The position numbers and the translations under genes are program-made. Positions 39,555 to 63,201 of a DNA stretch of 64,000 bases are shown piece after piece. Positions within the stretch are counted from its first letter, which is position 1. Each line of letters starts with the position of its first letter. The notes under the pieces were generated by a model. That model did not search any database, was not told the origin of the DNA, and saw nothing but the letters and a program-made list of their open reading frames with translations. This DNA comes from Dendrophyllia cribrosa. Lineage: Eukaryota; Cnidaria; Anthozoa; Scleractinia; Dendrophylliidae. Where the stretch lies: positions 13,597,536 to 13,661,535 of the forward strand of contig JAJLRJ010000005.1 of the NCBI GenBank assembly GCA_024195265.1, in the 5' to 3' direction.

Positions 39555-42500
39555 ATGAAAGCCTGCTCTTGCGGTCAGTTAAGCAATAGAGTGTTTGTGT
39601 CCGCAGTTAGCAAGTCAACACCAATGGCTTCACGATCGTCTGCTCGCGTGCCACAAGCAGATAGTCGTTCTCTCACTGCACGAGAACTAAAGGAAAAATA
39701 CAACAGTTACATCAATGCGGACCCAGCACTTGTTGAATCGAGAAGATGGATTGAGGTAAGCAAGCTTTCAGTTGGTTGCATGGATTTGCATACGACCTGT
39801 TTGGCGCATAGTCTTTAATCGCCTTTATACGATTTCTTAATTTTTGATCAAAGACAGATTTTTATATTTTGTGATTTGTAGGAGGTGACCAGAAGAGGAT
39901 TTAAAAGCGACGACTTTCGTGAATCTTTGGCCGACGGCATACTTCTTTGCGAGTAAGTATGGATGGTGAGTTGCAGTTCGCGAAAGAACGATGTTAGCTT
40001 TCAAACTCCTTGAAATAATTCAAACCGTTTTCGTAATACTTTCTTCGGTATCAATGTTCAATTAGCGCGACTGTTTGCGGTAAATGGTTATCAAATCGAC
40101 TCGGGGTACTTCATTTATCTTCCTTTGCAACGCAAGTAATTTTTTGAAGCGGTTAGCCAAGCTTTGATCAAGTTGAATCTGTTAGTGGAAGCAATTATTT
40201 TTGCAATTTTCTTGTTGCCATTTGAGAGCGATCGACTTTTAATAGCCCTGCCGACATATTTAAGCAAGTGGACTGAAATGATCAAACGACTTAAACAGCA
40301 AGAAACTTGATGCTAAATTCTGATAAGAGAAAGCCCAGTATTTGAGCTTTTAACAAAAGATACAGCAGCTACAAAAACAGAAAACTTTAGTGCAGTAAAC
40401 TCGGAGCTGTGCCTCTCAGGTCGGAAAAACATCTTCACCGTTACCGCCTGCTGTGAGATACAGTCGCCACGTAACCTACAGCTTACATATCTGTTTTTGT
40501 TATATTGCAAATCTTATGAAACAAAAATTAACACTCAAGTAGTTTAATTTCTAAAACTCAAGAGATTTTAGTGAAAAAATATTTGCTGCAGTGATGTGGA
40601 AATAATGATATTAGTCAAGAAATACAAGGTTCGTGGTCATAAACCTGGAACACATTATATCGTTTTTCTGTTCAAACATTTTCCTGTTTGACTGGTTTGA
40701 GTCAAGCATGAATAATTTGGGTTTTTTTTGCAATGACTTTATTAATATTACTGAACTTTACATTGACCGGCATTTGCAAAGGTAAAACAAGTGAGTTAAC
40801 AGGTGACTCTCAGTATATATATACAGAGTAGTAAAATCGAATTGACACTGACACACGTGCACGTGCACATAGAAAGAAAACTAAGGGAAAAGGATTTTAC
40901 CGGTAGTAACTGCTTGGCAAATTCAAAGAAAATCAACGTAGAGGGACTGAGAAATCAAGGTTAAAAGAAGTTAGCGATAAAGCCGGGTCTTAGGGCGAAA
41001 AGAACGGCGACGTACTGTAAAAAAAAGCTCGAAGTCAGTAGCCTGTTCTAATTGCGTTTAGTGCCGACAAACGGAGCGAAGGAAAAACTGCGAGAGGAAA
41101 AAAAGGCAAAAGAGACGCACCCATACATTCAATCAGTTTTAATTTGGGCGAGTTATGACGGGCGAATCAACACACTGCAGGGAGATCGACCGTAATGTTT
41201 TCAGTGCATCTAGTGAGATAGCCGTGTGTTAATATCCTAAAAGCAGCTATGTCGTGAGCGAGGATTTTGACGTATTTGGGCTCAAAACTGCCTCCAATTA
41301 AAACTAACTTTTCACGCCTTCCGACAGACACGAAATGCTTAATATTTAGAACACTAAGAGGGGATATCAAGAGAATTTTCGAAGAAAGAGTTTTAGCGAG
41401 TTTTCTAAGACAGGAGGCAATAAACGCAATCCATTTGTATTCATCTGCAGCCTTAGACAGTTAGACCACTATAGTAGTCAAATTAAGAGTAATTTTTAAA
41501 AAAAGCTGGACTTTGGGTTTCAACTGGTATAAAAAATATGTCGTTTGGGTTTGTTAAAGTAAAATTAAAAGGACACTGTCCCGGCTGAAATATCGTGTTT
41601 TCATGATTATGGCCAGGAGCAGTTGCTCACTTTACCGATCTTGAAATTGGAAGAAACCATCACTAAAAGTGATAGAAGCAAAGAATTATGAACTAAACAG
41701 ACAAAATAACGGCTAGAAAAGTCAAAATTTCACAAGAATGGCAAGTTTGATTTATTGAAAGGCGATCATTAAATCAAATTTCATGAACTGTAATCCACTT
41801 CAATCCTTGTAATCCTGCACTTTATCTCCAAACTACTGTTTCTGTTTTACTCTATAGAATCATTTTATCCAACTAAGTTGTATATTTGGTGGCATTTGGC
41901 GATATAACGTGGAAATAAGCTAAGCGACATTTTGCTATTTCGTCGGGACAGTGTCATTTTAAAACTGGTAGCATAGCCCCAAGGCATTCTAATCATCTTT
42001 GAGTGAGATAAAATGCATCAGTCAGTGTAGATAATGATCATTGACTGGTAGGTAGAACACATCCCTCTTATGTCGGAACAGTCATCATCACTATATTCTC
42101 CTCTCACCAGAAATTGCAGGTTTTGAGAATAAAGAAGTTGATCATTATAAAAAGTACAATTTGCTGAAGTTGTTTTCATAGCTCATCAAGATCCGTACGA
42201 AAGCAAATGAAAGGCAGTCAATTAATGGATCTGTGAGGACAACGATCTTGCTCAAACCAGCAATTGCATATCTTGTCTTCCTCTTTCCTTTCCTCTTTCT
42301 CGCCCCTTTCCCATAACCCCCCTCGCTTCGCGATTTTCATTTTGCCCTATCCGCCACGATTAACTCTAGTTATTTGCGGGTTGCTACTATATTTTGTTTT
42401 ATTATTTGAAAAATAAATTGTTGCTGTTGTTATCCCAACCAGAAGGTCTGTTTACAGACTAGAAAGGCCCAGAGATCTAACTGATTTGTCAACGCCTATT

Positions 42501-45500
42501 TTGTTGCTTTCCAGGTTAATCGAGATCGTTGGAGGCGTATCACTTGGTCGTATAAATCGTCTACCTACTGCTTATGCTGGCATTGTAAGTGTGTGATCGC
42601 ATGATGTCATTTATCGCTGTATATAAAGGGATTCAGTAAGAGATGCTTATGTAACTAACAGCAGCCAAAAACGAATCTAATCATAAGTGTGGTGGGGACG
42701 AAGTCAGTGGGGGTTCTAGGAGAGGGGTCTGGGAGACCTTTCCGCCCCCAACCCCCCCTCCTCCCAACCCCACTTCGCCCACCGCCTCCTCCTCCGATCC
42801 GCCACTGTGTAAAAACATTTAAATTGCTAATTGTGTTCTTGGCACAGGGGGGACATGATTTTATTGTGGTTGATTGTGTCCTGATTTTAAGATATACAAA
42901 TAATTTTTCATCACAGTCAAATTCGAGTATCCGAAGCCGCAACTACTTCAGTACGCCTCTTATGTCTCTTATATTTTCGCTGGTCCATCACTGGCCTTTG
43001 GCCAGCCCCGACTTCTCAAGAAAGCTTGGCGCGAGCGAACCTCTGCTCTGGTAGCCAGGGTACCGTAATTAAGTTCATCTGAACAGATATTCATTAACTT
43101 CAACTAGCCGTTTGCTGTCCTTATAAGCCTCAGAATTCGTCTGTCAGTTAATGAATACCGACGCATGGACTTTACACTGACCAGGAGCCCTATAACAGAG
43201 TTTCAGAGAGCTTAAGCTCAAAATCAATGTTGTACTGACAAATTTCTCGTGAAATAGCTACATTTATAACATCAAAGTCAAATCTTTTCTTGCTCACTCC
43301 TGTGAAAAAAGTAGAATGTTTTAATTAATTTGCCATGGTTTTCAGCCAATCGGAGCGAACCAGTGGCGGATCCAGCAGTTTATGTTTCCTTGCTCATACG
43401 GAAGCAGTGAACTGTTATCGCTTCAGCTGACACTCACTCATTCTTTAAACAGGACAACATCAACCTGTTTTTCAAAGCTTGCGAGGGACTGGGTCTGAAG
43501 AAACTTCATCTTTTCGATGTAGCTGACTTACAAGAAGTGACACCAGGGCGCGGCGATTCCATGTAAGTACAGGCTTGATTCAAACACCGTACGTCACCCG
43601 TGTAACACCCAAATAGTGCATAAAACGCTGCTAGCAATTTCAAAGACACTGACTTACTAGTGACGGCACCGCGGCAGAACGCACTGCGCATGAGTAGAAA
43701 ACTGAGCATCCGGTGAATAACGCATTTCCGGTGACATACTGTAATCCCATGTAAATGTTGTAGTTAATTTTTTTATCTCAGGTAATTTTTATTTTTCCAT
43801 TGTTTTTGGGTATGGTAATATATGCTGATGAATTTGAAACAAATGAAAAACAAAAATTACGTGAAATAAAAAATGAACTACAACATAAACAACATAAAAC
43901 TCCCGTACCGCGAAGTTTGAAAACAAAAAGTAAGAGTTATAAAACAAAGGTAGAGAAAAAGTTTGTTTCGTTGAAAAGTTTTTTCATCGTTCAAGTTTCA
44001 AGCGTTTGCACCAAGGGGTTTGGTGTTTGCACCAACAACGAAATATGAACAAATAATTTTTGCATCGCATTTTTTCACAAAAAACAAGTCTTCACTCCAT
44101 CTCGAAATGTATTCATGCAAGAACCGATCGTGTACGTACCATAATTTTCTTCGGTTTTGGTCCTTTCATCATTGCATCTAGAAAATCTAGGTCTGTTGGT
44201 TCATGCAGAAATGTTGTTTTATGCTGTTCGCATCGACTGTTGACTGGTAGTTTAACGGACCGGAAGTGCTTGAAGTTTACGCATGCGCAAACGTTCTGCC
44301 GCTGTGCCACTAGTGACCGACATCACAGCGCGCGCCTCAGCTCAACGCTCAATCTCGTTCCCAGGGTCCCTCTCTTATGAGGTAGCTGAAGAGGGAACGA
44401 TCTACTGTAGAAGCAGAGATCAAGTGACCCATACAACGTAGATTTTTTAGTTTTTTGAAAACTATATTTCGGCTGGCCAAACTACGCCTTCTTTAGGTAC
44501 AACGAGGAAAATGTACATTGGTTTACGTGTTTATGTAGAGAAATAGCTTGCACAATAACGGAAGTACGTAAGATTGATGACTTAGTATTAAAATAAAATA
44601 AAATAAAACAATGAAAAAGGAAACTAAATAACTAATATATTTATTCTCGGATGTTAACGCCATAGGGTTCAAGTTTTCTTAGCTTTTCTTCCCTGCTCGG
44701 CGCTTTGTTGCGCAACCAACGCAACAAAACTTTGAGAGCACCCTTGACCACCTTTATTTGTCCTCAAATATGCGACAAAAGGGCTTCAACTTTGATTTGC
44801 TCCTGAAAGGCAGCCTAAAATATTGTGACAGCAGTAGCTGTTTTGTCATGCGAAGTGGCTCCATCGCACTCGTGTTTTCGCGTGTGTGTTTTTCGTCTCT
44901 CGCGTGATTTGAACAGATCTGCGGCGTACAAGAAGGGACGCGAAATGAAAATTTCTTGGCCAATTTCTAGCTCCAACAGGCTTTCTATCTCCAATCACTC
45001 TGTTCGCGTTTATTCTTTCTGTCTGGACTGCAGCTTGCCTACTCCCATCGCGCTCCGTGCTCTCTTCACGCGCTCCGCGCGCGTCCAAGATCCTCGTATC
45101 CCCTCCCATTTCTTCTCTCTCGTGCCTGCCACGCAGGCTACTTTCCGTCCGTTTATATCGGCAGGCTTAGCTGCTATCGGTCAGCATCTCAGACGTAACG
45201 GACGTAACGGGGCAGTACGCAGCTCTTGCAAGGTCTTCTCTGATTTGCTGAGAAAACAATAGAACAAACAACACAACAATGAACCCTAGACCTAAAAACA
45301 ATTGAGCTGCGTGATATACTGCGTGGTATCTGGACGTAACGGTGCAAACTAAGGTGCAAACTTAGGTGCAAACGTACTGAGCATGTGGACGTGGGTGGAT
45401 GGGTGTCATGACACCCGCATACTCAGAATTCCTTTCGGTGACAGTCATGTTGCCCGATTGGCCATGGGAGTGTGTCAACAACAAATAAACAGGCAAAGAA

Positions 45501-47331
45501 GCATGAAATGCTTTAATTGGATATTCAATTCTTCTTTTTAAATATTCACTCAAACTCACAAAAATTCGAAACTATTTTATTCTAGCTTTATGCATGACCA
45601 CGAGAAAATATTTACATTATGACGGAAGTGGTAGCAAGCCTTGATTGTGTTACCATTTTATAATGCACCCACAATGATCCCATTCTTTGCGCGCCTTTTG
45701 TCATACGTTAAAAGCTCAATACTGAATGCGGGATTGTTCTACCGTCTATCAGGCATTGTTTTCAAAGTTGTATTGGATTTAAAACTCTTTGATATTCCGC
45801 CTCGCTGTTGTTGGGTATATTTTCCTTAGGGATTTGTTCGGATAGCGCATATAGGTAGCGACGTACTGACAACTTGTATGTGCGTCCGCTTTAGAAACGT
45901 AGGTTTTATTATTTTCCTTTATTTGCTTACTGCCGGATAACGTTGTGACAGTAGCATGTAAATTAACTACGTAACACGCGAGCCGTTCTTACCCGCTGAT
46001 CATTTCAAGTCCGGCATCTGGCTAAAACCAGAACGCGTCGTTCAAGCTGATTCAAATCTATTTCTCTCGATTTTAGATCTTCAAGAGCAAAGGAAACGCA
46101 AAGGAGGCTACAGAATGTAAGTAGATATAAAAAAATCGCTCAAGATCTTTAACTTAATCTGTAAATCCATCGAATAATTCATAATCTCCGAGCGGGAATC
46201 AAAACAAGTATTGCTATCCTGTGTCGCGTCTTGAAACTTCTAGTTGTATAGTTTTCTTCATATCCGTTGATACAGCTGGTTATGTGATAGCTTGGTTATG
46301 AACAACTCATATACCTTTCTGCATCACAGTGATCGGGCTTTGATTCTTCTCCACCGAAGTCTGTATTCTCCGATGCTACTGACTTGTGCGTTTATTGAAT
46401 AATGTAATGATATAGTCGACATGGCATTTATAAGTAAAATATTACATCCTGAAACTGCGAAGCGTTATCTTTGATACGCTAGCGTATAAAGCGTAGATTA
46501 GTTTGTTTATCTTTGACAGTTGTATTTTTGAATAATTTCATTTTTCTCAAGTTCAATCGTTAGCCTTTCTGCGGGATTTCACGGTCAGAAACAAAAATTG
46601 TAGAATGCTAAATCTAGATTGTGCACATACATCAGTGTCGAAGTCACCGTGTTTACATATTTTTTATTGTCAGTGTCTCGTGTTATATAAATTAAAAGAC
46701 TCCATGTTAAAATATTTTTAATTTGTGAGCAAGATTTTGGCGTAGAAGCCATCCGCCATGTTGAATTCTATCTTGTTTACCGACTGCGCGCGAATTCCTT
46801 TGATGCCAGGGCAACCAACCGAAACCGTAGGCTCAACATTGACAAGTTCAGAAGTAAGCATAAGTTGTGGTGACAATATGACGTTATTGACCTTGTGATT
46901 CCGTTTCTTGCAAGCGTGATGTTTTAATTTCATATAAGTATATCAGTCTAAAGACCAAAAAACCTTCACTTAACAACCCCGCTGATACAGTATCGTGCAT
47001 GCGACCACGCGTGTCCCACACACGCGAGATCCCTCTAATTACCGTGTGGCACTAAACTTTTGCGGATGGGTGATTTTTTGTGTTTTGCGCGAACTAATTT
47101 TTGCGATTGGGAAAGATTGGTCTTTCTTGTTGGGAATTTATTTTTTGCAATTTGCAGGAAGTCGCGTTCATTTGGAATTACAACAAGTTCGTGCATGCAA
47201 TCGAAATACAACTGTACTAGTGTAGCCGATTGCTCAGGCCGATGGATCAGCAATACGGTACCACTTAATGCATTATCAGGGAGCTGACGCCAAAGAAAAC
47301 GTCATAAAAAAAGAATTTGCGCTCATTTAAA

Positions 47332-47387
<56 letters not shown>

Positions 47388-50300
47388 CTGAGCCTAACAG
47401 CATCGCTCTCTGAACAGAAATCCGATCATAAACGTAACTGAGTTGAAAGGTCGGAAGCACAAGAATTAAGATTGACGACCGGGCTAGTTTTCAATTCAAG
47501 TTTATTTTAGCAATTCTCAAAAACAGAATTATGCGACCGTCTGCACAGTACATTTAGACCGTACAAAAGTTCACAAAAACAACTTTTTCTCCGTCTAGAA
47601 TAACCAGTACGACTACTTTCCGAATAAAATACACCTGTTGCTTATCAAAAATTGCCCGAGAAACTGATTTGGAAATCAAAATTGCAAAAAATACACAAAC
47701 ATGTTTGCATATTAAGGCAACGCGAGTGAAGTTAGAACTATAAAATCCAAGTCTTGTTTTGTTTACATAAAATCGCTTTTCACCTATGTAATGAATGAAC
47801 AAAAACACACAAAAATGGACAACACAATCTTCTTTCGAAAAATTTTATTCAAATCTCCATAAGTTTATGTTAAAAAGCAAAACGCGAACCATTTATAGCG
47901 CAACGAGGCCGAGCTGTCTTCGATGAAAGAAATCAAAACGACTGAATTTGAGCACGTTTTATAAACAATTCTCCAAAACCAGCGAGAACACATCTAAAAA
48001 GAAAAAGTCAATCACATATTGATATCAACATAAATTCCCATCGAAAAATGTATTTTGTTTTACCTTTAAGTCCCTTGACTTCTTAAGAATTTCTTAAATC
48101 TCCGCTTCTTCAGTTCTGAAACCCGAAGTACATCTCCCCGCATTGCTCCCACATTGGTAAAAACGTATGAAGTTCCTGGAAGCAAGATTTTATCCCTGAA
48201 AGCTCTTCTTTTTCCATTATACCGGCTTCTGAGTATCTCTTAATTAGTATCCCTGTCTTGAGTAGCAAACCGCGAAAAAATGCAGGAAAATAACGACTTT
48301 AATTTAAACGGTTTTCTCCGCTTTGTACGTGACATTCGGCCTTGCAGCCGCGCGAAAAACAAAGCCTCGCTTTGGTTTCAAAATTGCTAAGATCCCGGAT
48401 GTTGTGGGCGTCATACGCGCATGTTTTGCGACGTCAAACGCGCCTGCGAATTAGCCCTGCCCAACGCTCGGACACACATGTACAGACGTTGCCCGCGAAA
48501 CATTCCGCTAGCCATGACCATGAAAAATTAGGGAAAAGTTCTATGAGTATGGGGCACCGCAGCGAGAGCTCCGCTACTATGAAATTGTTCCAAATCGTTT
48601 AATTTGCCTAATGTGACTAAATTGTTAAGGAGCTGAATTGGTAGGGACAACTTTCAAGTTCAAATAGGGAAAGGAAAATTAACCGTCGTGTGTTCACGTT
48701 CTCAACGAAACCTATTGCAGGGAACGGCAAAGAAATGTACCAAATGTAACACGCACGTGCAGAGGCATCGTTTTCGCTCATTAAACCCAACAGTGGAGTA
48801 ATTTTTTTCGGCTTTTTTTGCGGGAACATTTTTTTGCGGATCGTGGATAAAAAAACGAAAGTCGCAAAAATAATAGTCTGTGAAGCTAGCGGTTTCTTGT
48901 TGGCACGCGCGATGCTGATTTCGTGAGAGGCGAAGCCGCGAAAACGAGCGGCAAAGTCGCGAAGGGAGAAAGACCTTTCTCCTCTCTATTCCCCTCGCGA
49001 ATTTGCCGGCTACTCAGGCTACAAGAATAAGAACCCGCAAAAATTTAGTGCCACACGGTACCTGTATTCAGTGTACACGTTTTTTATAAGAACGTTGAGG
49101 CAGGTATTGGCCAGATATTTAAGACCGTGCTGAGAACATAACCAGACTGAGATTTTGCTAAGAGCGTCGTTATTTTGTCCTCTTATTTTAAATTACAATT
49201 AGCCTAACTTGGAATAAAATAAAATGAGAAAATTTACAGTCCAACTGTTTTGTCAAGAACGTTTTCAAGCTCAAATCGCCAAAGAAATAAGAAAGAAAGA
49301 AAAAAGAGTATGTGATATCGAAGCCATGCGAAATGAGGTGCGACTTTATTTACCAGCTAACAAATTTCTAAAGTGGTACAAATTTTGGGCTAGCCAATGG
49401 ATACTTTGTAGTCGAATCTGAAGTTAGTTTCGTTTACTTCAACACTGAACCACCTACACCCTAACAGCCTTTCAAATTGGGGGGAATAAGATTGATTCTC
49501 GACAGTCCCTTTTTGTTTCGCTCAGTAAAACATAAAAGAGCTAGAAAAGATGAGCAACGTAGAAACTAATACCGAGCTTCGTAGCCATCTCTCTCAGCTT
49601 TTTTCTCTTTTTCTTGCCGCTTGTTAGACGAACTCATTCAGCAATCTGTTTTCTTCTAGATTCGTGTTTTGTTCTAGCGATAACATCATAGAACTGTTTT
49701 CAGTTAAGTGTCAAATGTAATTTTGCTATTGGTTTGATTTTGCATTGCTACGCTATGTGATTGGCTAAAAAATCTCGTGTCACATTCTCAACCAATCAGA
49801 AGTAAAACCACCAATCGTACCTTGCTTGTAGCATGTGTTTTCCCGCGCTTGACGCCGACTACAATGCTTTGAGTTCTGATTGGTCCATGGGATGATCTGC
49901 GTCTGTTGTGATTGGCCAGAGTGATTGCTTTGGTCTTGGTTTTAATTTGAAAACCGCTGTAAGGTACTCTATTTGTTCAGTGCGTCTCTCCGCAACCTAA
50001 ATTCACGTGTATGGGAAACCTTTGTGAATACTGAGATAACATACAAAATACCGTCATTATATTTGTATTTTACGTACGTTTGCAGGTGGCAATAACAATT
50101 CTGTGGTTATCCAAAGCTGCTCATAAGCGAGGTTACCAAGGCCCAGCGCTTGATTTCAGCTGTTTTCATCATCTACTTCCGGTAAGACCAGTTAGTGTGA
50201 CGCGTAAGTCAGTACTGAAACCTTGCGAAACCAAAGCCAACGAGCTTTAAATGCATTTTCTCTTGTTAGTGTTTGTCCCACTGACTAGGAATCTTGCACT

Positions 50301-53300
50301 CCACTCCCGCGAAAATATCGAAACTTCGCCTGATATATTACCAACCAAATGCCACCAAGTGTATAACTAAATAAATTATTGGATAAAACGATTCTGTAGA
50401 GCAAAACAGAACAAGTAGTTTGAGGCTAAAGTGCAGGATTGCAAATCGAATCAAATCAATTTATTTAAGTGTCAGAGTTCTAGCACGCGAGTGCTAATTC
50501 TGGACACTTTCCAGATCTAATTGGAATTTGGAAATGTTGGTTTTTGAGGAGAGGGGAAAACCGGAGTACCCGAAGAAAAACCTCTCGGAGCAAGGAGAGA
50601 ACTAACAACAAACTCAACCCACATATGACGCCGGGCCGGGAATCAAACCCGGGCCACATTGGCGGAAGGCGAGTGCTCTCACCACTACGCCACCCCTGCT
50701 CGCAAGGATGGAAGTGGATTACAGTTCATTAAATTTGATTTCATGATCGGCGGTCAAGAAATCAAACTTGCCATTCCTGTGAAACTTCATGTTTTTTAGC
50801 TTTTATTTCGTCTGTTTAGTTTGTGTTTTTTTGCTTCCGTCACTTTTGGCAAAGTAATCGAGCAAGATAATACGTAAGCTTAACCCTTAATTCCCAAGAG
50901 CGCCAAAAATCAAAATTCAAGACAAATCACAAATTTAATGTCGTAAAATATAGAAAAACAAATGGCATCATGCAAAAGTACTGACGAAGAGGTTTCATTT
51001 GAATGGTCATACCATAGGATTTCGTCCACAGACTCAAAAGTTAGAACTACACTACCTGTCTCCATAATGGACTCAGGGAATGAAAGAGTTAAAGCGGAAG
51101 CCGCTAATCGGCACCTGGTTGAAGAAAGCTCCTGGTCACACTCGTATATCAGCCGAGACACTGTCCCTTTAAGTATAAGTATAAGTATAAGTATGACCAT
51201 AGGTAAAATTAAATCTGCCTTTTGCAATGAATCCATAGTAAAAAAAACCTACACACATATTCTTTTCCAGGAGGTACATTTTCAGGGTAAAAAGGATCGA
51301 GGAACACGGAAGAGACACTCCTTAGGGGACCTGGAAACTAAATCACGTGGTACGGACAACATTCCACCAAAAAAGAGAGATCGAGTGTTCGATAAGATTG
51401 ATATCAAAGACAGAAAAGAGAAATTTCGTAATCTTGAAAACGAAGCAAAGAAGGTAAGATTCTATTCTGGTTTAATGGATGCTTTTGGTTCAATTTCCAT
51501 ATGTTTCATGCAACAATAAACGTTGTGTCCCTCCACCTTTTTTCTATTTTAGCGCTAACCAACTGATAAGGGTGGCTTAAGCCTGGTTTTGATACGGTGT
51601 AGTTCGAGAAATTTCCAGACGTTCCGAAAGTTCGTTGTTTCCTGATCGTCCAAGACATTTTCGACTCATGAAAACTCGACGACGTTGATGTCCCCAATTA
51701 TTAGGGAGGGGATTCTCGCTGAATGGAGAAAGCGTTTGTGTACTAGATTTCTGGTATGGTCGGTGGCAATTTCTGGGTTATGAAACATAAATGTTTCACA
51801 GACTAGGCCATCGGCGATTGGTTAAGCTCTGTGCCAAACTTCTAAAGCATGGTTTGAGTTTCCTAGGCTATTTTCTAACAGGAGCTGAATAGCACAGGGT
51901 ACCCAATGAGCTCAGGGCCTACTAGCCCAGGGTTTCCAATGAGTTCAAGGCCCGGTTGCACAGAGCATCACATTCAATGTGTTAATATGGGCACCTAATG
52001 TTTGCTGGGACACCAAACATTTGAAAGTCTAGGCTTCTTACGTCTAAGCTTTGGAGTACTAGAAATTTCTCTTAGACAACACTCTTGGTTTCCAAAAAGC
52101 GCATAAATCAAAATGGCGAACTTTTTACTTGCGTCTTTACTTTATCGTTAGGGAGAGTTAGCAACCACGACTGCAACGCCAAAGAAAACGTCACTGAAAA
52201 AAAAAAAGAACTTGCGCTCATTTAAACTACTTTGAAATTGTTCCAAATTGTTTTATTTGCTTAAAATGTGACTGAATTGTCCCGGAGCTGAATTTGTAGG
52301 GACGGCTTTCATGTTAAAATAGAGCAAAGAAAATTAACCGTCGTGTGTTCACGTTCGACACAAAACCTATAATTTGATCATTTGGCGTTGTTGTTTTGTA
52401 GGGAACGGCAAAGAAATGTATCAAATGTAAAACGCACGTGCGGAGGCATTGTTTTCGCGCATTAAACTTATTGTTTTGTGCCGATCTCGCTGCCCTCGCT
52501 GCCCTCGCTGCCCTCGCTGCCCTCGTCGTCGTCGTTGCTAAAGCTCCCTAATTCCGATAGTCACCAAGAGCGCTTTCCTTTTGTATGGAAAATCCGGTAT
52601 GGTAAATCCGGTATGGTAAATCCGGTATGGTAAATCAAATGGAACAGACTTTTCTCTGGAAATTTTTCGGAAAAAAAGGAATACCTTCAGAGGTAGTCCT
52701 CTTTTCTCGTTTTTGCCGAAATGATCGGAAAATCCTGTACCATCTGCTGCGTCCCACTAGTGCCATGCTTATTGTAAATCGTTAGTACCCAGTCTCCTCA
52801 AGAAAGAAAAAGCAACTCCGTGCAAAAGGAACACCCTCTTGCCGTTCCGTCAGTCCGTTTTAATTGAGGACAATTTGTCCTGTTCTTTTTAACAGGAAGT
52901 TCTACCCGGTTTTTCCACTGAAATGGAAAGCGCCCCAACATTTCTATCTCGCCCCCTCTCCCCAGTTTCCCCTCGTTTTCCCCCGCTTGTTCGAGCGCTG
53001 GTTTTTAGCTGCTCCCCAGGCCCATGATCTTAACGCCAACCTCCCATCCCAGGAGCCCTTCTGACTAACCAGACTCTTCTCACACGATCACATCAAGACT
53101 GTACTGTTAGATCTGTCTAGCCAGCGCTTCCACCGCGGTCAAACGTCCGAGGCGTTTTTCGTTTTATGTAGTGGGATTTTATTTAATATTAAATGGAAAT
53201 ATGGGCAAGGGTGTATAAAAACATTAGTTGACGTTACTTTCTTTTAATTTTTCTCAAAATGATGAGCCTTTTTCCGTTGAAAACTGACCAAAACTCTTTG

Positions 53301-56300
53301 CGCCTGATCAAAATTATGTTGGCAAATGGCGCCGACAATTCTGCAGTTCACAGTTTTTAAACGCTTAGAACTTTTTTGGTAAACTTTCAAAACGTTTGGT
53401 AAATTGACAGTGTATTGGCAATATATTAAACTTTAAACAGTGAAAATGACAACCTTAACTTTTAAGTACTTTGCTTAACTTTTGCAAATTTCTCTCGTTT
53501 GACCGCGGTTATGCCAGCGCTGTACATTTATGTTTTTGAAGACGTTTGGCTGGCACTAAGTTGCGAGTGAAGGCTTAACAAATCGTGTGTTACCATCCTA
53601 ACACAGGAATCAACGGTTTTGGAGTTAAACAGACGAAAATCAACTGGCGGGATTTTAAAAAGAATCAAAGATAACCACTGGGAGAATTGGGACACAGAAG
53701 AAGGAATACCCAGCAGCCACAAAGAAACGAAGCAGCCGAAATCTACAATGCCTGATCCAAAGTTTCACGAAAAACAAGAATTGTACAACCGACGAGAAAA
53801 GCAAGCTGAAATGGTGGGTATTTGATTATCAATACTAAAATGAAAAAGTTTCGTCTGAGTTTTGATTTTTCTAGTTTTCAGTCAAACGTGTTTATTTCCA
53901 CATATTCTGCGTGGTAGACACGCGTGTTAGCGCAACTATGGCCAGTGCCGCTCCTCCTTCACGGTTGTGCCTAAATCATACCGTCCAGAAGGACGTCGGA
54001 CACCTTATTGAGACTTATATAACGTAATGTCGACACTTAGAATTTTTTTCCAATAAATGTTTAAGTGTAAAAAAGAAAATCTAAAATCCCCACTCAGGAT
54101 AGAACCTGTGACCTCAGCTAGGCTTAGGCTTACATAGCCTACCATACCACTGTACCACCTAGCTTCTCGGGTTGCTTAGTCCTAAATTAACTAATTAAAT
54201 TGCTACCCCTAACCTCAACTGAAAGCTAACCAGTTACTCCGTTATATAAGTCTCAAAAAGGTGTCCGAAGTCCTTCTGGACGGTATGATTTGGGCTTGAC
54301 CCTCTTTCACTGATCGGTTAAACTGTAGCGCGACGGGACAATCTTAACTCGAGTGTCCACGCGGTATTTTTTTTTTTACTCGTACGTATTACGCATCTCG
54401 CTGATTGATTATTAAATCAGCTGCAATGATCCTACTGTAGGATTTATTTCGCAAATTTATCATCTCACATACTTCGTCTTTAATTCACCCTCACAGGAGT
54501 CGACCGTGTTGGAAGACAAAACACGCCGGAGGGGGAGTGGGTCAGAACGTATGACGTCGCCACCTCCCGTGTCGCTTGGACGAAGAGTGGAGGTGGACTT
54601 GAAAGAGAAGCAAAAGAAGTTTGAGGGACTTGATCGAAGCGCTGAACAGGTAATATTACGATTCTTCTTCCTAGTGTAAAGAAGCTGTAACCTTGGTCAA
54701 ATTTTATTTTATAAAATATCGAAAAACGAATAGTACCATAGAAAAGTACTGCTGAAGAGATTTTCTTGAAATGGACACACTAAAGGGTTTCATTCACACA
54801 CTCAATCACCTTGTAAAGCACAATAAACATTACCACGGGAAAGTACTTCTTAATAGCTTTCATTTGAATGGTCACACTTTATAATTTCATTCACAGTCGT
54901 CTTAAAAGTGACACCAAACTTGTGCAGTATAATAACCTGCACCACAGGAATGTACTACTCAGTAGCTTTCATTTGAATGGTCACACTTTAGGACTTCATC
55001 CACAGACTCAAAAGTTAGAACCACTTTGTGTTTCGACTCTGGCTTTGTAATACCCGCTCTTGTTTCGTGAAGTGAATATGGACAGATGTTATTATATACA
55101 AGTGGTCACATATTGCTAATAATCGTGCTCGGTTGATTTCTCCTCCAGCAATCTGCGGTTTTAAGCGGGAAGACGCGACCGGTGACCTGGGGACCAGGAG
55201 AAATTCGCCAGGCGCTCAAAAAACAAAAAACCCCGGTGGATGTTGCATTTAAGGAAAAGCATAAAAACTATGAAGAGCTTCAGAGACAAGCCACTACGGT
55301 ATGATATACTACAACTACAGTTTAATTTTCACCTGGCACGCATCGTCACTAGAGATATTTTAATCACAGTGGAAATCCTTCCTACAAACGCATAACGTTA
55401 ATGTCACCTTATATTTTCGGTATAAAACATTCATATCCGTAATTTCAACAACTTAGCTTGTACAGCGGGTTAATTAAATGTTATATTTATGTTTTAAGTA
55501 GGATGATAATTGTTCGATGCTTCCTATGTAGTATTCTTATCAAATTATGTGGACTCGGTCACGATTGTTTAGCAAGTAAAACAGAATACTTGCACTTAAA
55601 TTGGTATACCATCGGGAGATCAGTTAATTTATTCGAAGTCGAGCGCTTACAAAACCGCTTCTCGTTGCGTTTTAGCTTAAATAATTCTATATATCTTTGT
55701 CGTTAGGTTTCTGAGAATTTTTGAGCAAGAAAAACCAGTTTATTAAAACTTTAACTAACTTCTTCACGACGTCTATGCTAATAACCGAGCACTATATATA
55801 CACTGAAATAACAACCTGCTTCAACACAAATATAAGATTATATCTAGTCACAGGTGGCCGCATCAATGATACAGTGTTTTATATTTGCATGGCGATTAAC
55901 CAATTATAAATAATTGTAGTATCAAGATGATATCTTTGTATAGCTCGTATGGATGAGTTTTTTGTTTTTCTTTACAGGAAAGCGCTGTGTTGCAGGGAAA
56001 ATTACGACCCCAATTCGATCGAACTGATGCAAGACAAGAAAGAGTTCCACTACGAACTACAAAAACGGATGTGAAACTTCGGGAGAAACAAAAGAGTTTC
56101 GAACAACTCGATTATCAAGCTCAAAGGGTAAAGAACGCGAAAATATGGAACTAAATAATACTCGAAGGCAGCTGTGTGAATCCAGTGAAACTTCAAAACG
56201 CGAGACATTTTTCGTTGAATTGATAGTAGTAGGTTTATTATTTTGTGTTAGCTGAAAATGGATTGGATTTTGTTGTTAACAAACTAAATTCTGCAAGATC

Positions 56301-59300
56301 TAATATCAGGGCTGAATAGTTTAAAACAAAAGATTCTCAAAACATAAAATACGTCTTGAGGCTGATTAGGTGGGATTCTTTCTGTCAGTGCTCTAATATC
56401 CGTGTGCGAGAAATTTGTGAAACATTTGTTTTATTTTTCCGGCAGATTTGTCGTGTAATCACAAAGAGTTTAATCTGTTTGTTTTGTTTGGGGTTGAAAA
56501 ACTGTGGGTGCCCTCGATGCCAGTGACAAACAACGTCGCAATCGAACGTCGTAAAGTAAGTCTCCGCAGACATCAATGGCTTTCATGCGTGCAGAATTGT
56601 AATTGGTCATTGTCGCGGTTGCGTGTCCTGGGACTCTTTCACTGTTAGTAATTTTGACATATGTTATTTTAATTTGTTTAGGAAAAAGCCATACTTGAAG
56701 GAAACCTTCGTTTATCGCCCACAGACAGCAAAGAAAAGAAGGCAAACTCCGTGGTGGTCCCCAAACGGGAGCAAATCAAACTGGACGAAAAGAAGGCTAC
56801 TTTCGAACGACTTGACAGACAAGCGGAGCAGGTAAGCAAGCTGATTCAATATATGTTGCATTGGGGACTATTTTGTTTACAGGATGATTTTACGTCGGTG
56901 GTTTTAAAGTAGTTTTGCAGACAATTGTTTTTTAATTATTAATACGTTACGTTTAAAAATTTAATTTATATTTTCTAAGTTTTAATAGAAATTCAAAAAT
57001 TAAATCGGGTGTATGCTACATGTATAAACCACTGCGCAAAGTTTTTATTTCCTTGGACAACGGCACGCAAAGTCTTCATGAATAGCGATTTGGGTCAATC
57101 TCTAGACTTTTCTTACATCGCAATCACAATTTTATGTCTTTATTTCAACTTCCTGTTGGTTGATTAGTTCATTTTTGGTTGTGCTTATTTTTTTTGTTAT
57201 TGTATGGTGTTAGTGTGTATTGAAAGCCTCCCTTTGCTTATTTTATGGGAAAAATCATTTTATTATTAAACAAAATAATATTCCTTATTGGCGTTCAAGA
57301 GTCACCTAGCAAATATGATAAACTGTTATCATCTGATCCCATCTGGAGGGAGTCTCTACATTGCACACTAAAAACCGAACATAAGCGTCGCCTGATGAAA
57401 GCTCATTCAATTCCTTTACTTGAGTTTTATTGTTTTATTTTATGGAAGGATGCATCTGTTCTTCGCGGTCATCATCGCCCATCCTTGACAGAAACCGACG
57501 GCCGCAATAGATCATCAAAAGTTGGTCTTCCTCGAGAATCTAATGTTGGACTTCTGGAGAAGCAACGCACATTTGAAGACATGGATTACAAAGCTAGAAA
57601 GGTACAAACGTTAATTTATCAAACATAGGGATGCAGTAGTTGTCTATTCCCCATATTCCTTTGCATTTCGTCCATAAAACGCAGGAATAAGGCGAAGGAT
57701 GCGAGCAAAACATTTTTTGGTCACATAGGATGTGAACAAAGTATTTGCACAACCGTATTGCTCATCGATATATTCCTATTTTTTTTTAATTCACAGGAAA
57801 GCGAGACCCTGCAAAAGAACAAACGAAAATCATTCGGCAGCCCAGTTAAAGAGCCTATGCCACTAAGTACATCCACCAGGCCACAGTTAGGTCGTTTCCA
57901 ATCACCTTCTAACAGACAATGGAACGCTTCAGACGTTTTGAGGCGAAATCAACCAGAACGGTCCTCTCGCCCAGTTTCCAATTACTATGAATATAGCAGC
58001 TTCAACGACCATCCAGAATCAGACCAAGTTATGGAATATGCTACATCAGAAGGACGTATCGACCAAGTGTCAGTGGAAGAACCCATGCAATCGGCCCCAT
58101 CATATGAAGCTCAAGCGATGAACTACCGTCCAAACCGAACAGATCTTCCCAAGGAAGACGAGCAGCGTGCTGCTGAGAAAAGAAGAAGGGATTATTCTGA
58201 TTACGTAAAACGGCGTCACGAAGAATCCAGAAAAGGAAGGTCATCTGTTGAGGAACCCTTGGAAATAGATGTATCCGATGCCACAAATCTTTCCTACCGT
58301 GACATGGTTCGAGCGCCACCGAAAAAGTCTCGAGAGACGTTTATCCGTGAAACAAATAATATTGCTGCAGTAGAGGAGATGCCATGGCGGAAAGAGGTTC
58401 GAGAAGTCAAGGACAACAGGCACCTTTCTCTGGAAGAAGAGCAGAACGCGAGCTATGCTCCTCGACCGAGCTCACCCCGCTCCGAGCTTGGAAAGGCTCA
58501 ATACCTTGAACTTGTTGTCCCTCCTTCAAAAAAAGCGATGGACAGTTTTACTAATGAGAGCGATGCAGGTGGAAAAAAGACAGAAGAAATGCCATGGAGA
58601 AAAGAAGTAAAGGAGATCAAAAGATCACTGAGCGGAGAAGACCCTCCCGCATTCATGAATTATACTCAGGCGCAGCCTGCGGAGTTGACGCGGATTCGAC
58701 CACCCTCTTTAAAAACGCGTAATGCGTTTTTAACGACACAGGATGACAAATACGGAGAAGAAATGCCTTGGAGAAAAGAAGTTAGGGAACTAAAGGAGAG
58801 GCCAAGGACAGAAGATGACGAGGAGTATCGGGATGAGAGTCCTCCACCGGAAGTCGATTTCTCTTCTGCGCCAAATTTGCGTAAATTGTCGTACAAGGAA
58901 TTTAATACTGCGCCTTCCAGAAAACGAAGAGATGTTTTTCAGCCCGATGCTGAAAAAGACAAGGACAAGGAGGAGATGCCGTGGAGAAAGGAGGTGCGCG
59001 AAATCAAAAGAACACCAACTGAAGAAGAGGAAGAACAGCTACAAAAGTCTTCAGCGACACTTGCCCAGTCTTCTCCCGAACACGATTTCAGAGGACCTGC
59101 ATACCACGAACTCGTGGCTAAGCCTCCAAGGAAAGCCAGAGACAACTTCGTGCCGTACGAAGAAAAGCAGAAAGAGGAAATGCCGTGGAGGAAAGAAATA
59201 CGTGAAATTAAAAGAACTATAACAGAAGATGAACAGATTCCGCGCTCATCTACCGAGACGGTTCATTCTTCACCGGAAGACCAGAAAGACCTGAGGAAGT

Positions 59301-62300
59301 TTTCTTATCGTGATTTTATTGCCAAGCCCAGGAAGAAGTCGGAAGGCTTTCTCCCCAGTGAAAAAAAGGAAAAGGAAGAAATGCCCTGGAGGAAAGAAGT
59401 CCGAGAACTAAGGGAGAGACCTACAGAAGATGAGCAAATAAGTCAATCGTCTCGCTCAGAAGTTGAATCTGCACCCAATGATTCTTGGTATAGGAACTCG
59501 TACGCACCTGACTCAAGCCGCATGTATCCCGATCGTCAACCCGGTGTGCAAAACTTGTCTTATAAGGATTTTATTTGTCCACCATCGAAAGCAGATGAAC
59601 AAAAGGTACCGGTACGGCGTAAATCAACTAAAGTTCAAGATCTTACCCAGAAGTTTGCTACCATTGAACGTGAGAAAAATCTACCCAAAGAAAGTGGTCC
59701 TCCATCGCGTAAATCATTAGTAGATGTAGCAGAGCTGAAAAGAATAGAACGGGACATGAAAACACGAAGTTGGCATGGCTTCCCTACCGCCGAATACGAC
59801 TCAGATGATGAGTATGACGTGGGATATCGCCCGCGCAGAAGATCACAAGAGGAAAGGGAAGAGAGGTTGCGAGAACAACACCATCGGGAGAACGTTTCTG
59901 GACTGCAGGAACTTGACGATGTGTTTCAAGATCCAGAAGGCTACTTTGAACAGATACAAGCACCTCCCCCTGAGAAAAACATAGAGGAAGGAGTGCGTGT
60001 TCAGTATGAGGCTCCAGCGCGGGAAGGACACGACGAGAGAAGACAAGAAGTTGTTACCGTACGTTCAACGAATCATTATGGTCGCTACAGACCACATGAA
60101 CAACACGGTCAGTCTACATTATATGCTGCACATAGAGACGATTATTACCAAAACTATCCCGTCAGTGACGCACCTATTCAAAAACGCAAACCGTCAGATG
60201 ATCGAGTGGTTGTAATGCAATCCTGGATTCAGCCAAATCGCGTAGAATTAGCTGAAGCTCAAGCTCCCAGTGAACCAGAACATGTAGAAAAGAGGAATGT
60301 CAATCAAGAATACATTCCAAGGGGTAACGGTCCATATGCTCCAGAGCATTACAAAAATGAATGGCCCTACCGCGAGTACGAAAAGATCGAACCTAACCAG
60401 CCAAGTAGAGATCAAAGAAATGGAGATAACTTGTTTTCAAAGCCCAGCGACCCCAACGAAGAAAAATGTTTCATTGAAGAAAGCGAATATCCACGACAGA
60501 ACCAACCATATCATCCAGGATACAGCAGTTACAGAGAGCAAAATCAAGTCCGACACGACTATGGGATGACAACAGAAATGCATTCAGACCCACGAGAACA
60601 GAGAAGTCAGCAAATGCAAATGCCTGCCAAGGATAGCGGAGCTATGATTTTTGGCGGCCCAATTGTTGTCACTGCACGACGGAGTCAACGGTCCGAGAAA
60701 CCTAAAGTTGTGAGAGATCGCGGAACTCACGATTTTGTGCCAGCTGAAGTAAGACCCCACGAAAGCAGGGTGGTGCGGGACGATGTGGATTTTTTCCCAG
60801 CGGAAGAGAGATCGTATAATAACAGAGATAATATAAAGTCGACGCAGGATGGAAGAGAAACCATTGAGAATGCACGACGTCTAGTCTTACAGGATATTAA
60901 AAGTATTGGCAAAAAAGACGTCGTTGAGCCCCCTGAAGAAACCAAAACGGCGTACCGGCCGCAGGTGTTTGGCGTGTTTGCACGTACCGATCCGAACGAA
61001 AGCCAGCGTCGTGATGATTTACATGAGCGTCAGTCGTCGGAGTTTCCAGTAAAGGAAACCGAAGGTAGTTTTCAAGAAACGCGTCGTGCCAACACGCGTT
61101 ACCTGAATGAAAACGAGGAAGAGAATCCACAAGATTGGAAAACTCTGCAGAGTGGAAACGACGAGTTGTGGTACGCGGAATCAAACCCACACCACAGAGA
61201 CGAAAGCTATGGTTACGAAAACAGTGTGTCAGACCATACCGAGCTTCACCCAACGGTTGTATCAATGGTGGAAAGTCAGACACGGCAGTGGGGGAGCGGA
61301 GCATTCGATGAGTCTCCACAGAAAGATGAAGAGCGAACAGGACGGCAACGGGTAATGAACTTTTCAAATGACCACGACGATGACTTATCGAGCGATAACA
61401 AGGGTGGCGTTTTTCAAACAGCCACAACGGACGCAGTTCCGGTAGAAACGCGCGAAGCTGATCGAAGGCGAGAGCAGAAAGAAAAAGAAGAGATGGTACG
61501 AAGGCAATTAGGGGACGCCGAGTACAGGGAGAAGTACAGGAAGGAGTTCGAGGAGAAGAATCGCAAACAACGAGAAAAATCCAACTACCTCATGAGCTTA
61601 CAAATGAGGGCGGCTATGGACTCTGGTGAAGATGTAGATTATGGTGAAGATACCGAAAGCACAACAAGGGATAGAGAGTTTCAAGTTAAACAGCAGCAAA
61701 GTCAAGACAACACTTGGAAAAAAGAAACCGAAACCGAAAAACCGCGATTTAACGGCAATGTTGATGACAAAGAACTGATGAACGTAGTTGCTGCAGAAGA
61801 AGATTACTGGCACCATAAAATGGAGAGCAACAAAACGGAACGGCAGAACAGAGAAGCAAGCCGCCACGAGCGACCGAGGCGGTCGAAAAGTGAGGAATCG
61901 CAGCCACGAATCAATGGAATTGATTTTGTTGGCGAGGAAGACATTGTCCGCAGAGAATACAAAGACTTTGAGCACGAGGTGCGCCTTAGAAAGCTCAAAG
62001 CAGAGGAGGAGTTTATGGCTCAAGAAGCTGATAGATTAATGAAAGAAAGAGCCGCTTTGAAACAGAAAATAGAAGTCGAAGAGCCCATCGTCGCCCCGGT
62101 AGAGAAACCGCCAGTAGAATTTACCATCAACGAGGAAGCGCTTAAAAGTTTACTGGCCGAAGATAAAAAGGAAGAGAACTTTTACGATGAGAATAGAAAT
62201 CGTGATTTTTCAAAGACACGAATATCTGGACAAAAAGATCCCTTCTATAACGATAAAGATTATCCATCTCAGGTGCAAGATAAAGGAAGACAGCATTCAG

Positions 62301-63201
62301 ATAAAATTAAAAGTTCAAAGCCACAAGCAGAGGTTGTTCCAATGAACGGTCACTATCACGACAGTGAAGTTTCCCGGAAAGCACCAGCTGAAATACTAAA
62401 GCAAAACGGAGATCCCTTTATCGAAGAGGACTTCCCAGGGTATTCCGGAACAGACCCGGAAGAGAACGGCTTTGAAGGATATAGTATTTACCAGACATTT
62501 ATTCACGGCGAAAGTAATCACGTAATGTGCATGAGCTGCGGGACGTCAATCGAGAAGAGTGCCGCGATGTATATAGCAGAGTTGGACCGCTACTGGCACG
62601 TGAACTGCTTCAGCTGTGTTGTGTGCCGAGCGTGGTTTGGGGACGAGTATAGCCCGGTCCTTCACATCACCAACTCCATGTTACATTGCGAGCGTTGCTA
62701 CATAACGTCTGAGGGTAAGTTGCAGTGGATCGGGACCCCTGGGCCTCTTCCCTAGATTTTTTCGCCCAGGGAAAGTTCAACGAACGCCGTTTTTGCATTC
62801 CTCATCCATAGCAAGTTGTCGATTTTTCAAGCAACAGGCAATTAGTTCCATTTTTCGCTTGTTGTCGACTATTCCTGAGAAAAAAACTACTTATGGTCTT
62901 AAAGAAAAACTTGTGTAACAATTTTCATGTAAATGCGCTATTTATGATGGGAAAATAAAAACTGTACCCTTTTGAATTTTTTACAAAGATTGTCCTGGCA
63001 GCATGAATTTTAATCTATCCGTAGTTCAAGAAAATAACATTGAGACCTTTGTAGTTTTTCGCGAGTTAAGCGTGTTTCACTGATTCTCTAGAGCTATTTA
63101 TCGCGGTTTTGTTTAAATTGCATAAAGCTCTGTCCCTCTGTTTTTCTTTAATCTTATATCTATTTCTTTCTTTTTCAGGGGAAAGATGTACAGAAGTGTA
63201 G
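39555..63201 (+). CDS. LIMCH1/LMO7: LIMCH1/LMO7-like CH and LIM domain protein, 15 exons
   Basis: Vertebrate LIMCH1 and LMO7 are actomyosin and cell-junction scaffolds with an N-terminal CH and a C-terminal LIM domain; this has that plan. Exons: 39555-39755, 39882-39952, 42515-42584, 43453-43562, 46077-46116, 50086-50181, 51271-51453, 53607-53813, 54497-54649, 55149-55298, 55978-56127, 56682-56831, 57449-57601, 57797-62714, 63179-63201. All have GT/AG borders and compatible phases, giving 2224 aa; starting at the better ATG 39624 gives 2201. The CH domain fills exons 1-6 (ESRRWIE, DGILLCE, DNINLFFKACE, VAITILWLSKAA). Exons 7-13 are phase-0 repeats. Exon 14 holds six MPWRKE repeats (residues about 771-1115), a long charged and coiled-coil-like part, and a complete zinc-binding LIM (2156-2212). 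The last exon adds ERCTEV. The middle is low-complexity, rich in E, K, R and Q. Confidence 0.92.
41567..41960 (+). mobile_element. Family C MITE, uninterrupted copy
   Basis: AAAAGGACACTGTCCCGGCT at the left and CGTCGGGACAGTGTCATTTT at the right are inverted repeats with TTAA at or next to both ends. About 394 bp, no coding frame. It shows the pre-insertion state of the nested copies at 9941 and 50330. It lies in intron 2 of the LIMCH1-like gene. Confidence 0.85.
47040..49059. mobile_element. Family K composite element, about 2 kb, with nested insertions
   Basis: ACCGTGTGGCACTAAACTTT at the left and AAATTTAGTGCCACACGGTA at the right are inverted repeats continuing into TTTTGCGG words. Inside, a family I element is split: its left part ends near 47333 and its right part resumes near 48585, separated by an (AT)n tract and about 1.2 kb of unrelated sequence. 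It lies in intron 5 of the LIMCH1-like gene. Confidence 0.55.
47335..47385. repeat. (AT)n microsatellite, about 25 units
   Basis: An uninterrupted AT dinucleotide run of about 51 bp, at the left junction of the sequence inserted into the family I copy. Confidence 0.98.
49691..49959 (-). mobile_element. Family B MITE, diverged copy
   Basis: Left end GAACTGTTTTCAGTTAAGTG after TA; right end TTTGAAAACCGCTG followed by TA. The interior keeps TGATTGGCTAAAAAATCTCG, AACCAATCAGAAGTAAAACC and TGATTGGCCAGAGTG. It lies in intron 5, shortly before exon 6. Confidence 0.75.
50445..50701 (-). mobile_element. SINE family 2 (tRNA-headed), minus strand
   Basis: The minus strand starts GAGCAGGGGTGGCGTAGTGG (A-box TGGCGTAGTGG) and has a B-box-like GGTTTGATTCC about 40 nt later. 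A body with GGGTACTCCGGTTTTCCCC follows, then an A/T-rich tail. GCAA flanks both sides (50441-50444, 50702-50705). It interrupts a family C element whose halves join cleanly when it is removed. Confidence 0.8.
50880..51092 (+). mobile_element. Family A MITE, full length, TTAA-bounded
   Basis: It begins TTAACCCTTAATTCCCAAGA and ends CAGGGAATGAAAGAGTTAA; the outer 16 or so bp are imperfect inverted repeats bounded by TTAA. This 213-bp copy defines the family. It lies inside a family C element in intron 6. Confidence 0.75.
52151..52548. mobile_element. Family I MITE, TA-bounded
   Basis: GGGAGAGTTAGCAACCACGA at the left and GTCGTTGCTAAAGCTCCC at the right are inverted repeats flanked by TA. The interior (AACGCCAAAGAAAACGTCA; TTAACCGTCGTGTGTTCACG; GGGAACGGCAAAGAAATGTA) matches the split copy inside family K. 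A GCTGCCCTC 9-mer is repeated four times near the right end (52486-52535). Confidence 0.75.
52568..52936 (-). mobile_element. Family F MITE, reverse copy
   Basis: GAGCGCTTTCCTTTTGTATG at the left and ATGGAAAGCGCCCC at the right. The interior is the reverse complement of 8051-8407. A 14-bp unit GGTATGGTAAATCC is triplicated near the left end. It lies 20 bp from the family I element in intron 7. Confidence 0.75.
53973..54291. mobile_element. Inverted-repeat element with a tRNA-like interior
   Basis: AATCATACCGTCCAGAAGGA at the left is matched by TCCTTCTGGACGGTATGATT at the right. The arms run about 50 bp (through GGACACC and GAGACTTATATAACG). Read on the minus strand, the interior has a tRNA-like run with GGTGGTACAGTGGTATGGTA and, about 35 nt on, GGTTCTATCC, resembling A and B boxes. 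Confidence 0.75.
54690..55040 (+). repeat. Family A core, amplified copy
   Basis: The words AAAAGTACTGCTGAAGAG, TTTCATTTGAATGGTCACAC and ACTCAAAAGTTAGAACCAC recur two to three times. Similar in structure to 16050-16512. It lies in intron 9 of the LIMCH1-like gene. Confidence 0.55.
58373..59425 (+). repeat. LIMCH1/LMO7: Six-copy MPWRKE protein repeat within exon 14
   Basis: EEMPWRKEV/I-R/K-E starts at 58373, 58583, 58757, 58970, 59174 and 59375 (spacing 70, 58, 71, 68 and 67 codons). Nearly every copy is preceded by a second motif of the type LSYRDMVRAPPKKSRETF (also AQYLELVVPPSKKAMDSF, LSYKEFNTAPSRKRRDVF, PAYHELVAKPPRKARDNF, FSYRDFIAKPRKKSEGF), and a seventh such motif (LSYKDFICPPSK) follows the last copy. 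The paired motifs define a repeat of about 68 residues. Function unknown. Confidence 0.9.
62528..62698 (+). other. LIMCH1/LMO7: LIM domain of the LIMCH1-like protein
   Basis: Zinc ligands follow the LIM pattern: C-x2-C (CMSC), 19 residues, H-x2-C (HVNC), then C-x2-C-x2-C as CFSCVVC, 20 residues, C-x2-C (CERC). All eight ligands are present, so the domain should fold. LIM domains bind proteins, often actin-linked partners. It is encoded at the end of the giant exon, with only the last few codons of the protein in exon 15. Confidence 0.92.

Follow-up and report, generated by a model that had tools for sequence, protein, structure and literature searches.

A row of motifs split across exon junctions in a coral LMO7/LIMCH1-class-like gene

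A gene on the + strand of a 64,000-nt stretch of the Dendrophyllia cribrosa genome (contig JAJLRJ010000005.1, positions 13,597,536 to 13,661,535; the window hereafter) contains a run of small exons of nearly uniform size, which raises the question of what exactly is repeated there and what the repetition might do for the protein. The original prediction was that five successive exons of 150 or 153 nt, phase 0 at both ends, arose by tandem duplication in a LIMCH1/LMO7-like gene and encode the same head and tail motifs, with exons 7, 8 and the start of exon 14 as partial relatives. We built a gene model from splice sites and tblastn with two coral orthologues, P0001 from Oculina patagonica and P0002 from Montipora foliosa (a record named trichohyalin-like isoform X3), to which the window protein is 64% and 57% identical, respectively. 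The model is a complete 15-exon gene at 39624-63201 encoding 2201 aa with a single terminal stop. The protein runs from a CH domain through an array of motifs placed across exon junctions and six EEMPWRKEVREIK units to a C-terminal LIM domain.

The five exons are E9 (54497-54649), E10 (55149-55298), E11 (55978-56127), E12 (56682-56831) and E13 (57449-57601), or cassettes 1 to 5, and their sizes (153, 150, 150, 150 and 153 nt), phase 0 borders and AG/GT ends are as anticipated. AG acceptors and GT donors could be read from the sequence throughout E7-E14, and all introns from E5|E6 through E13|E14 are phase 0. The likeness among the cassettes is far above chance, since their pairwise BLOSUM62 global scores (mean 60.5 and lowest 35 among 10 pairs) exceed those of all 200 shuffled sets (highest mean -4.3, highest single pair 22); their mutual identity in the window is 26-47%. 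Both these alignments and scans with hidden Markov models (HMMs) support tandem exon duplication, and the array is thus the product of an ordinary kind of event. A cassette HMM, for which exons of the window supplied part of the training set, recovered the five full cassettes and the tail of E8 (0.1 bits) from the six frames of the window. Nothing else was found by this search at E<=10, and hidden additional cassettes in the window's introns were ruled out on that basis.

The exon is not, however, the unit of the repeat. When the window protein and four orthologues were centred on the exon ends, the repeated block proved to be about 31 residues long, with 20 residues before the junction and 11 after it (consensus VxLxEKQxxFExLDxQAxx|ESAVLxGxxRP, the last position having no majority residue), and to recur at a spacing of about 50 residues. 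The predicted heads and tails therefore do recur, but as the two halves of a single motif lying across the junction, the middle of each exon encoding a variable linker, and we rejected the exon as repeat unit because conservation sits across the junction. A junction HMM trained on 20 sequences (the E9-E13 junctions of the four other proteins, with the window excluded) recovered a motif copy at each of the seven junctions in the window protein. Its scores were 8.1 bits for E7|E8, 16.9 for E8|E9, and 54.6, 57.7, 53.2, 53.8 and 46.8 for E9|E10 to E13|E14, whereas, of 300 shuffled 440-residue arrays, 195 yielded a match at all and the best one stood at 4.3 bits. The seven copies are thus five strong and two degenerate ones. 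The same scan shows that the flanking exons are true, partial relatives: exon 7 (51271-51453, 183 nt) encodes an N-terminal basic region and the tail half of motif 1; exon 8 (53607-53813, 207 nt) encodes the second half of motif 1, a linker and a degenerate first half of motif 2; exon 9 continues with the second half of motif 2, a linker and the first half of motif 3; and exon 14 (57797-62714, 4918 nt) starts with the second half of motif 7, ahead of the EEMPWRKEVREIK units and the LIM domain. These exons look partial because E7 holds only the opening half of copy 1 and E14 only the closing half of copy 7.

Conservation follows the motif both between and within species. Motif columns are 81.9% identical between orthologues versus 59.4% for linkers, a difference reached by 3 of 251 circular shifts of a mask that is itself nearly 50-periodic, so that whole-period shifts are expected to score well. 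Gapped columns among orthologues number zero in the motif and three in the linkers, and the five core motifs are without indels across the five sequences. The peak of conservation lies about 6 residues before the junction, on the tail side and not exactly on the junction. Among paralogous cassettes of the window, motif offsets reach an identity of 0.43 and linker offsets one of 0.10. Hydrophobic positions 4, 11, 18 and 25 of the motif hold a 7-residue register across the intron position, and A18, L25 and R30 are invariant. No Pfam family matched the 424-aa array region at E up to 10, and none of the titles and abstract openings listed from the open-licence literature describes such a junction-motif array.

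E9-E13 are present in all four orthologous proteins that cover the region (P0001-P0004). P0003 and P0004 probably derive from spliced RNA, because each is one unbroken frame (1959 residues on a 7075-nt contig for P0003, 1966 residues on a 6448-nt contig for P0004), whereas the exons that they read through occupy some 12-13 kb of the window. The appearance expected of frames called from genomic contigs is that of P0009-P0014, all six of which start with a short leader directly before the exon 14 start. For each junction copy we also obtained scores from models trained on other species and other positions only, applied to excised pieces and lacking a separate null. By this measure the five core copies reach 28.1-56.3 bits in every one of the five sequences. 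The scores of copies 1 and 2, respectively, are 17.9 and 26.8 bits (window), 16.7 and 5.7 (Oculina), 6.5 and 5.5 (Montipora), 2.7 and 1.7 (P0003) and 2.5 and -4.4 (P0004). The core is thus fixed in these five sequences, and the copies at the N-terminal end decay. Motif 2 (E8|E9, 53607-54649) scores well in the window species alone, and one repeat was lost or eroded at E8|E9 in the Oculina/P0004 lineage, because a short replacement sequence stands at this junction in Oculina and P0004.

A tree of 25 cassettes (five positions in five sequences) addresses the age of the duplications. Each of the five positions forms a single group, by position and not by species, with good support for E10, E12 and E13, moderate support for E9 (89/79) and poor support for E11 (52/0). 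The position label needs four changes on this tree, the minimum for five groups, and none of 200 shuffles was as low. Because the cassettes group by position, the duplications predate the split of these lineages. At the nucleotide level, array exons are linked to one another by a single ungapped direct repeat of at least 20 nt, which is 25 nt long and lies at the E11 and E14 acceptors. A recent or species-specific duplication was rejected on the grouping by position together with this single repeat.

The gene can be placed in a family through its two ends. Exons 1-6 (39624-39755, 39882-39952, 42515-42584, 43453-43562, 46077-46116 and 50086-50181), assigned by tblastn with P0001 and P0002, splice sites and Pfam, encode the N-terminus and a CH domain scoring 44.2 bits against a cut-off of 26. 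The LIM domain scores 32.5 bits in one stretch (cut-off 22.9), and the coding part of exon 15 (63179-63201) adds the last residues and the stop; the protein ends in GERCTEV, as do P0001-P0004. An N-terminal CH and a single C-terminal LIM are among the features by which PMC3305314 defines the LMO7 class. A search with the CH domain returned five proteins at E<=0.001 from 361 candidates, namely the two corals and three LMO7 records of the fish Nelusetta ayraudi. The fish and coral CH domains are 48% identical over 89% of the query (E 5e-32), and the fish LIM is 35% identical to that of P0001 over 65 residues. In the reverse direction, the fish CH has a single match across the 627-Mb genome, in exon 4 of this gene, at E 0.076; this match is weak because exons were searched singly. 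Among solved structures the coral CH is closest to calponin (E 3e-9) and not to an LMO7 entry. The expected LMO7/LIMCH1-type gene is therefore supported by the CH and LIM domains and by LMO7 providing the sole non-coral CH matches.

The middle of the protein is where the coral gene and vertebrate LMO7 part. The fish protein P0005 has the order CH-DUF4757-PDZ-LIM, whereas we found no PDZ in P0001, P0002 or window exons 7-14, and no match to DUF4757 (PF15949) at E<=10 in the array region, P0001 or P0002, compared with 140 bits in P0005. On its domain content the gene appears to be LMO7/LIMCH1-class-like; we do not file it as canonical LMO7 because the PDZ found in P0005 is not found in the coral proteins. 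Both the junction-motif array and the array of EEMPWRKEVREIK units in exon 14 are coral features not found in P0005. The idea that the array is absent from vertebrate LIMCH1/LMO7 accordingly stands for LMO7 of one fish species, which has no recognisable array, and the comparison covered no LIMCH1. As described in PMC3305314 and PMC10052820, vertebrate LIMCH1, which has no PDZ, shares with the coral gene the order of CH, long middle and LIM as well as an in-frame exon block in the middle. PMC3305314 also describes a cnidarian LMO7-class protein, Nv_216756 of Nematostella, which shares LIM plus CH and the lack of PDZ with the coral gene but whose CH is reported to be degraded. A second copy of the gene was not found in the genome: the next match of the LIM query was 32% identical (E 0.004) and a query with the EEMPWRKEVREIK array matched exon 14 alone (five matches). 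E11 matched only itself at E<=0.001, in a search insensitive enough to miss the sister cassettes as well.

We lean towards the reading that this coral scaffold carries, through old exon duplications, a row of split motifs of about 31 residues whose putative helices serve as multiple docking or coiled-coil sites. Tandem duplication converted the region that follows the CH domain into a motif row, and every motif has its first half in the last codons of one exon and its second half in the first codons of the following exon. Each motif would form a short helix of amphipathic, coiled-coil-like character, with flexible linkers connecting neighbouring helices. Through its CH and LIM ends the protein may tie actomyosin or cell junctions, and the row between these ends could offer a filamentous or oligomeric partner, or the protein itself, a number of weak sites; by analogy, non-muscle myosin II is the leading candidate partner. 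Because every intron cuts the motif at the same place, loss or gain of a cassette would remove or add exactly one motif and leave the new junction intact. Nebulin and titin likewise contain protein repeat arrays built from tandemly duplicated symmetric exons. They share this mode of in-frame exon repetition with the coral gene but differ in motif and protein, and in the coral gene the intron cuts the motif itself.

The suggested short helix is supported for the tail half alone, where structure prediction for E11 (five sequences) places a helix at residues 29-49 with a block pLDDT of 86-91. Several results weigh against the docking row. The E11 model as a whole is of modest confidence (mean pLDDT 69.8, pTM 0.33), and its head half, severed from its tail in this single-exon model, is without helix. 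A hydrophobic-moment test was weak, giving p 0.07 with a peak at 105 degrees for motif positions 4-25, and p 0.25 and 0.23 for positions 1-26 and 1-31 with peaks at 155-160 degrees versus the helical 100. The motif profile had no match at E<=10 among Protein Data Bank (PDB) sequences. In a whole-protein scan, copies 1 and 2 of Montipora (0.0 and -1.5 bits) and the partial copy 2 of Oculina (-4.8) fell below the null maximum, which Oculina copy 1 exceeded at 6.8 bits; given the low N-terminal scores in these two corals, exact copy number is therefore not strongly constrained. Finally, the array itself was the query that retrieved the four orthologues, and array-less forms may have escaped it; a search with CH only found no coral protein without the array, P0001 and P0002 being its only coral matches.

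The weakly scoring N-terminal copies would also suit an array that is a mere flexible charged spacer between CH and LIM, its repeats a by-product of exon duplication, as would its charged composition and the lack of any Pfam family noted above. We consider this unlikely, since a pure spacer predicts no concentration of conservation in motif over linker and no indel-free core in five sequences. We similarly doubt that tail and head are distinct motifs brought together simply by the adjacency of their exons. Conserved blocks do flank the intron, and a continuous helix across it is putative, but the 7-residue hydrophobic register crosses the junction, and E7 with a tail only and E14 with a head only close the array exactly. 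Rather less probable is that the array represents the DUF4757 region of vertebrates in multiplied form, with a motif ancestral to LMO7/LIMCH1. In fish LMO7 the motif HMM does score highest inside DUF4757 (RQQTYEELQR, 3.5 bits, a level reached by about 1/300 local shuffles); hhalign, however, aligned best to a different, charged and E/R-rich stretch (0.3% probability), the DUF4757 model has no match to the coral array, and the comparison rests on one fish species.

Alternative splicing raises a different possibility, that corals tune the motif number by tissue or stage. Every cassette is phase 0-0, so that skipping keeps the frame as foreseen, and all forward tail-by-head joins retain a motif score (52.0-67.8 bits with E9-E13 tails and 17.9-39.2 with E7/E8 tails, on excised pieces without a separate null). 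PMC10052820 reports that in skeletal muscle mouse LIMCH1 gains 454 aa from six in-frame exons and describes these as disordered, with no identifiable domains; by analogy, we take them as a family precedent for regulated splicing, not as evidence in the coral gene. The Montipora record name, isoform X3, suggests further isoforms, and because the orthologues represent 90%-identity clusters of 1, 19, 42 and 3 members, forms missing one cassette could be hidden. Nevertheless, E9-E13 are kept in 4/4 array-covering sequences, no isoform missing a cassette was seen among these cluster representatives, and symmetric phases follow from duplication alone; we regard splicing of this kind as improbable. 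More doubtful still is its extension to a splicing-proof valency dial, in which any subset of cassettes would leave intact motifs and corals would set the number of putative actomyosin-binding helices by cell type or life stage.

LMO7-class proteins couple their CH and LIM ends via a long middle region of poorly understood design. If the coral middle is a row of discrete helices from split exons, as in the docking reading that we favour, it would offer a simple system for asking how the strength of a scaffold depends on the number of its motifs, and would differ clearly from the vertebrate LMO7 examined. The locus is also a warning that an exon need not correspond to a protein repeat unit.

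Downstream of the motif row, exon 14 contains the six EEMPWRKEVREIK-type units (window about 58,240-59,430), 58-71 residues apart, several of them preceded by SYxDF or SYxEF and a P..K stretch. Six PWRKE-type PW(R/K) units were present in 11/11 related proteins covering exon 14 (P0001-P0004 and P0008-P0014), with one ELPWRKE variant each in P0009 and P0011, and no such units were found in the three fish records. Intron 9 contains three diverged copies of a tandem repeat of about 87 nt (54713-55005), and similar phrases were seen by eye elsewhere in the window, for example near 51,000. Upstream of the gene, exons of an HSP70-superfamily gene, which we take to be HSP110/HSPA4, lie on the - strand at about 9,000-31,600 (extent judged by eye), where two frames match Pfam HSP70. 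A 384-residue open frame at 3368-4522 on the + strand encodes a rhodopsin-family G protein-coupled receptor (GPCR; Pfam 7tm_1, 76 bits).

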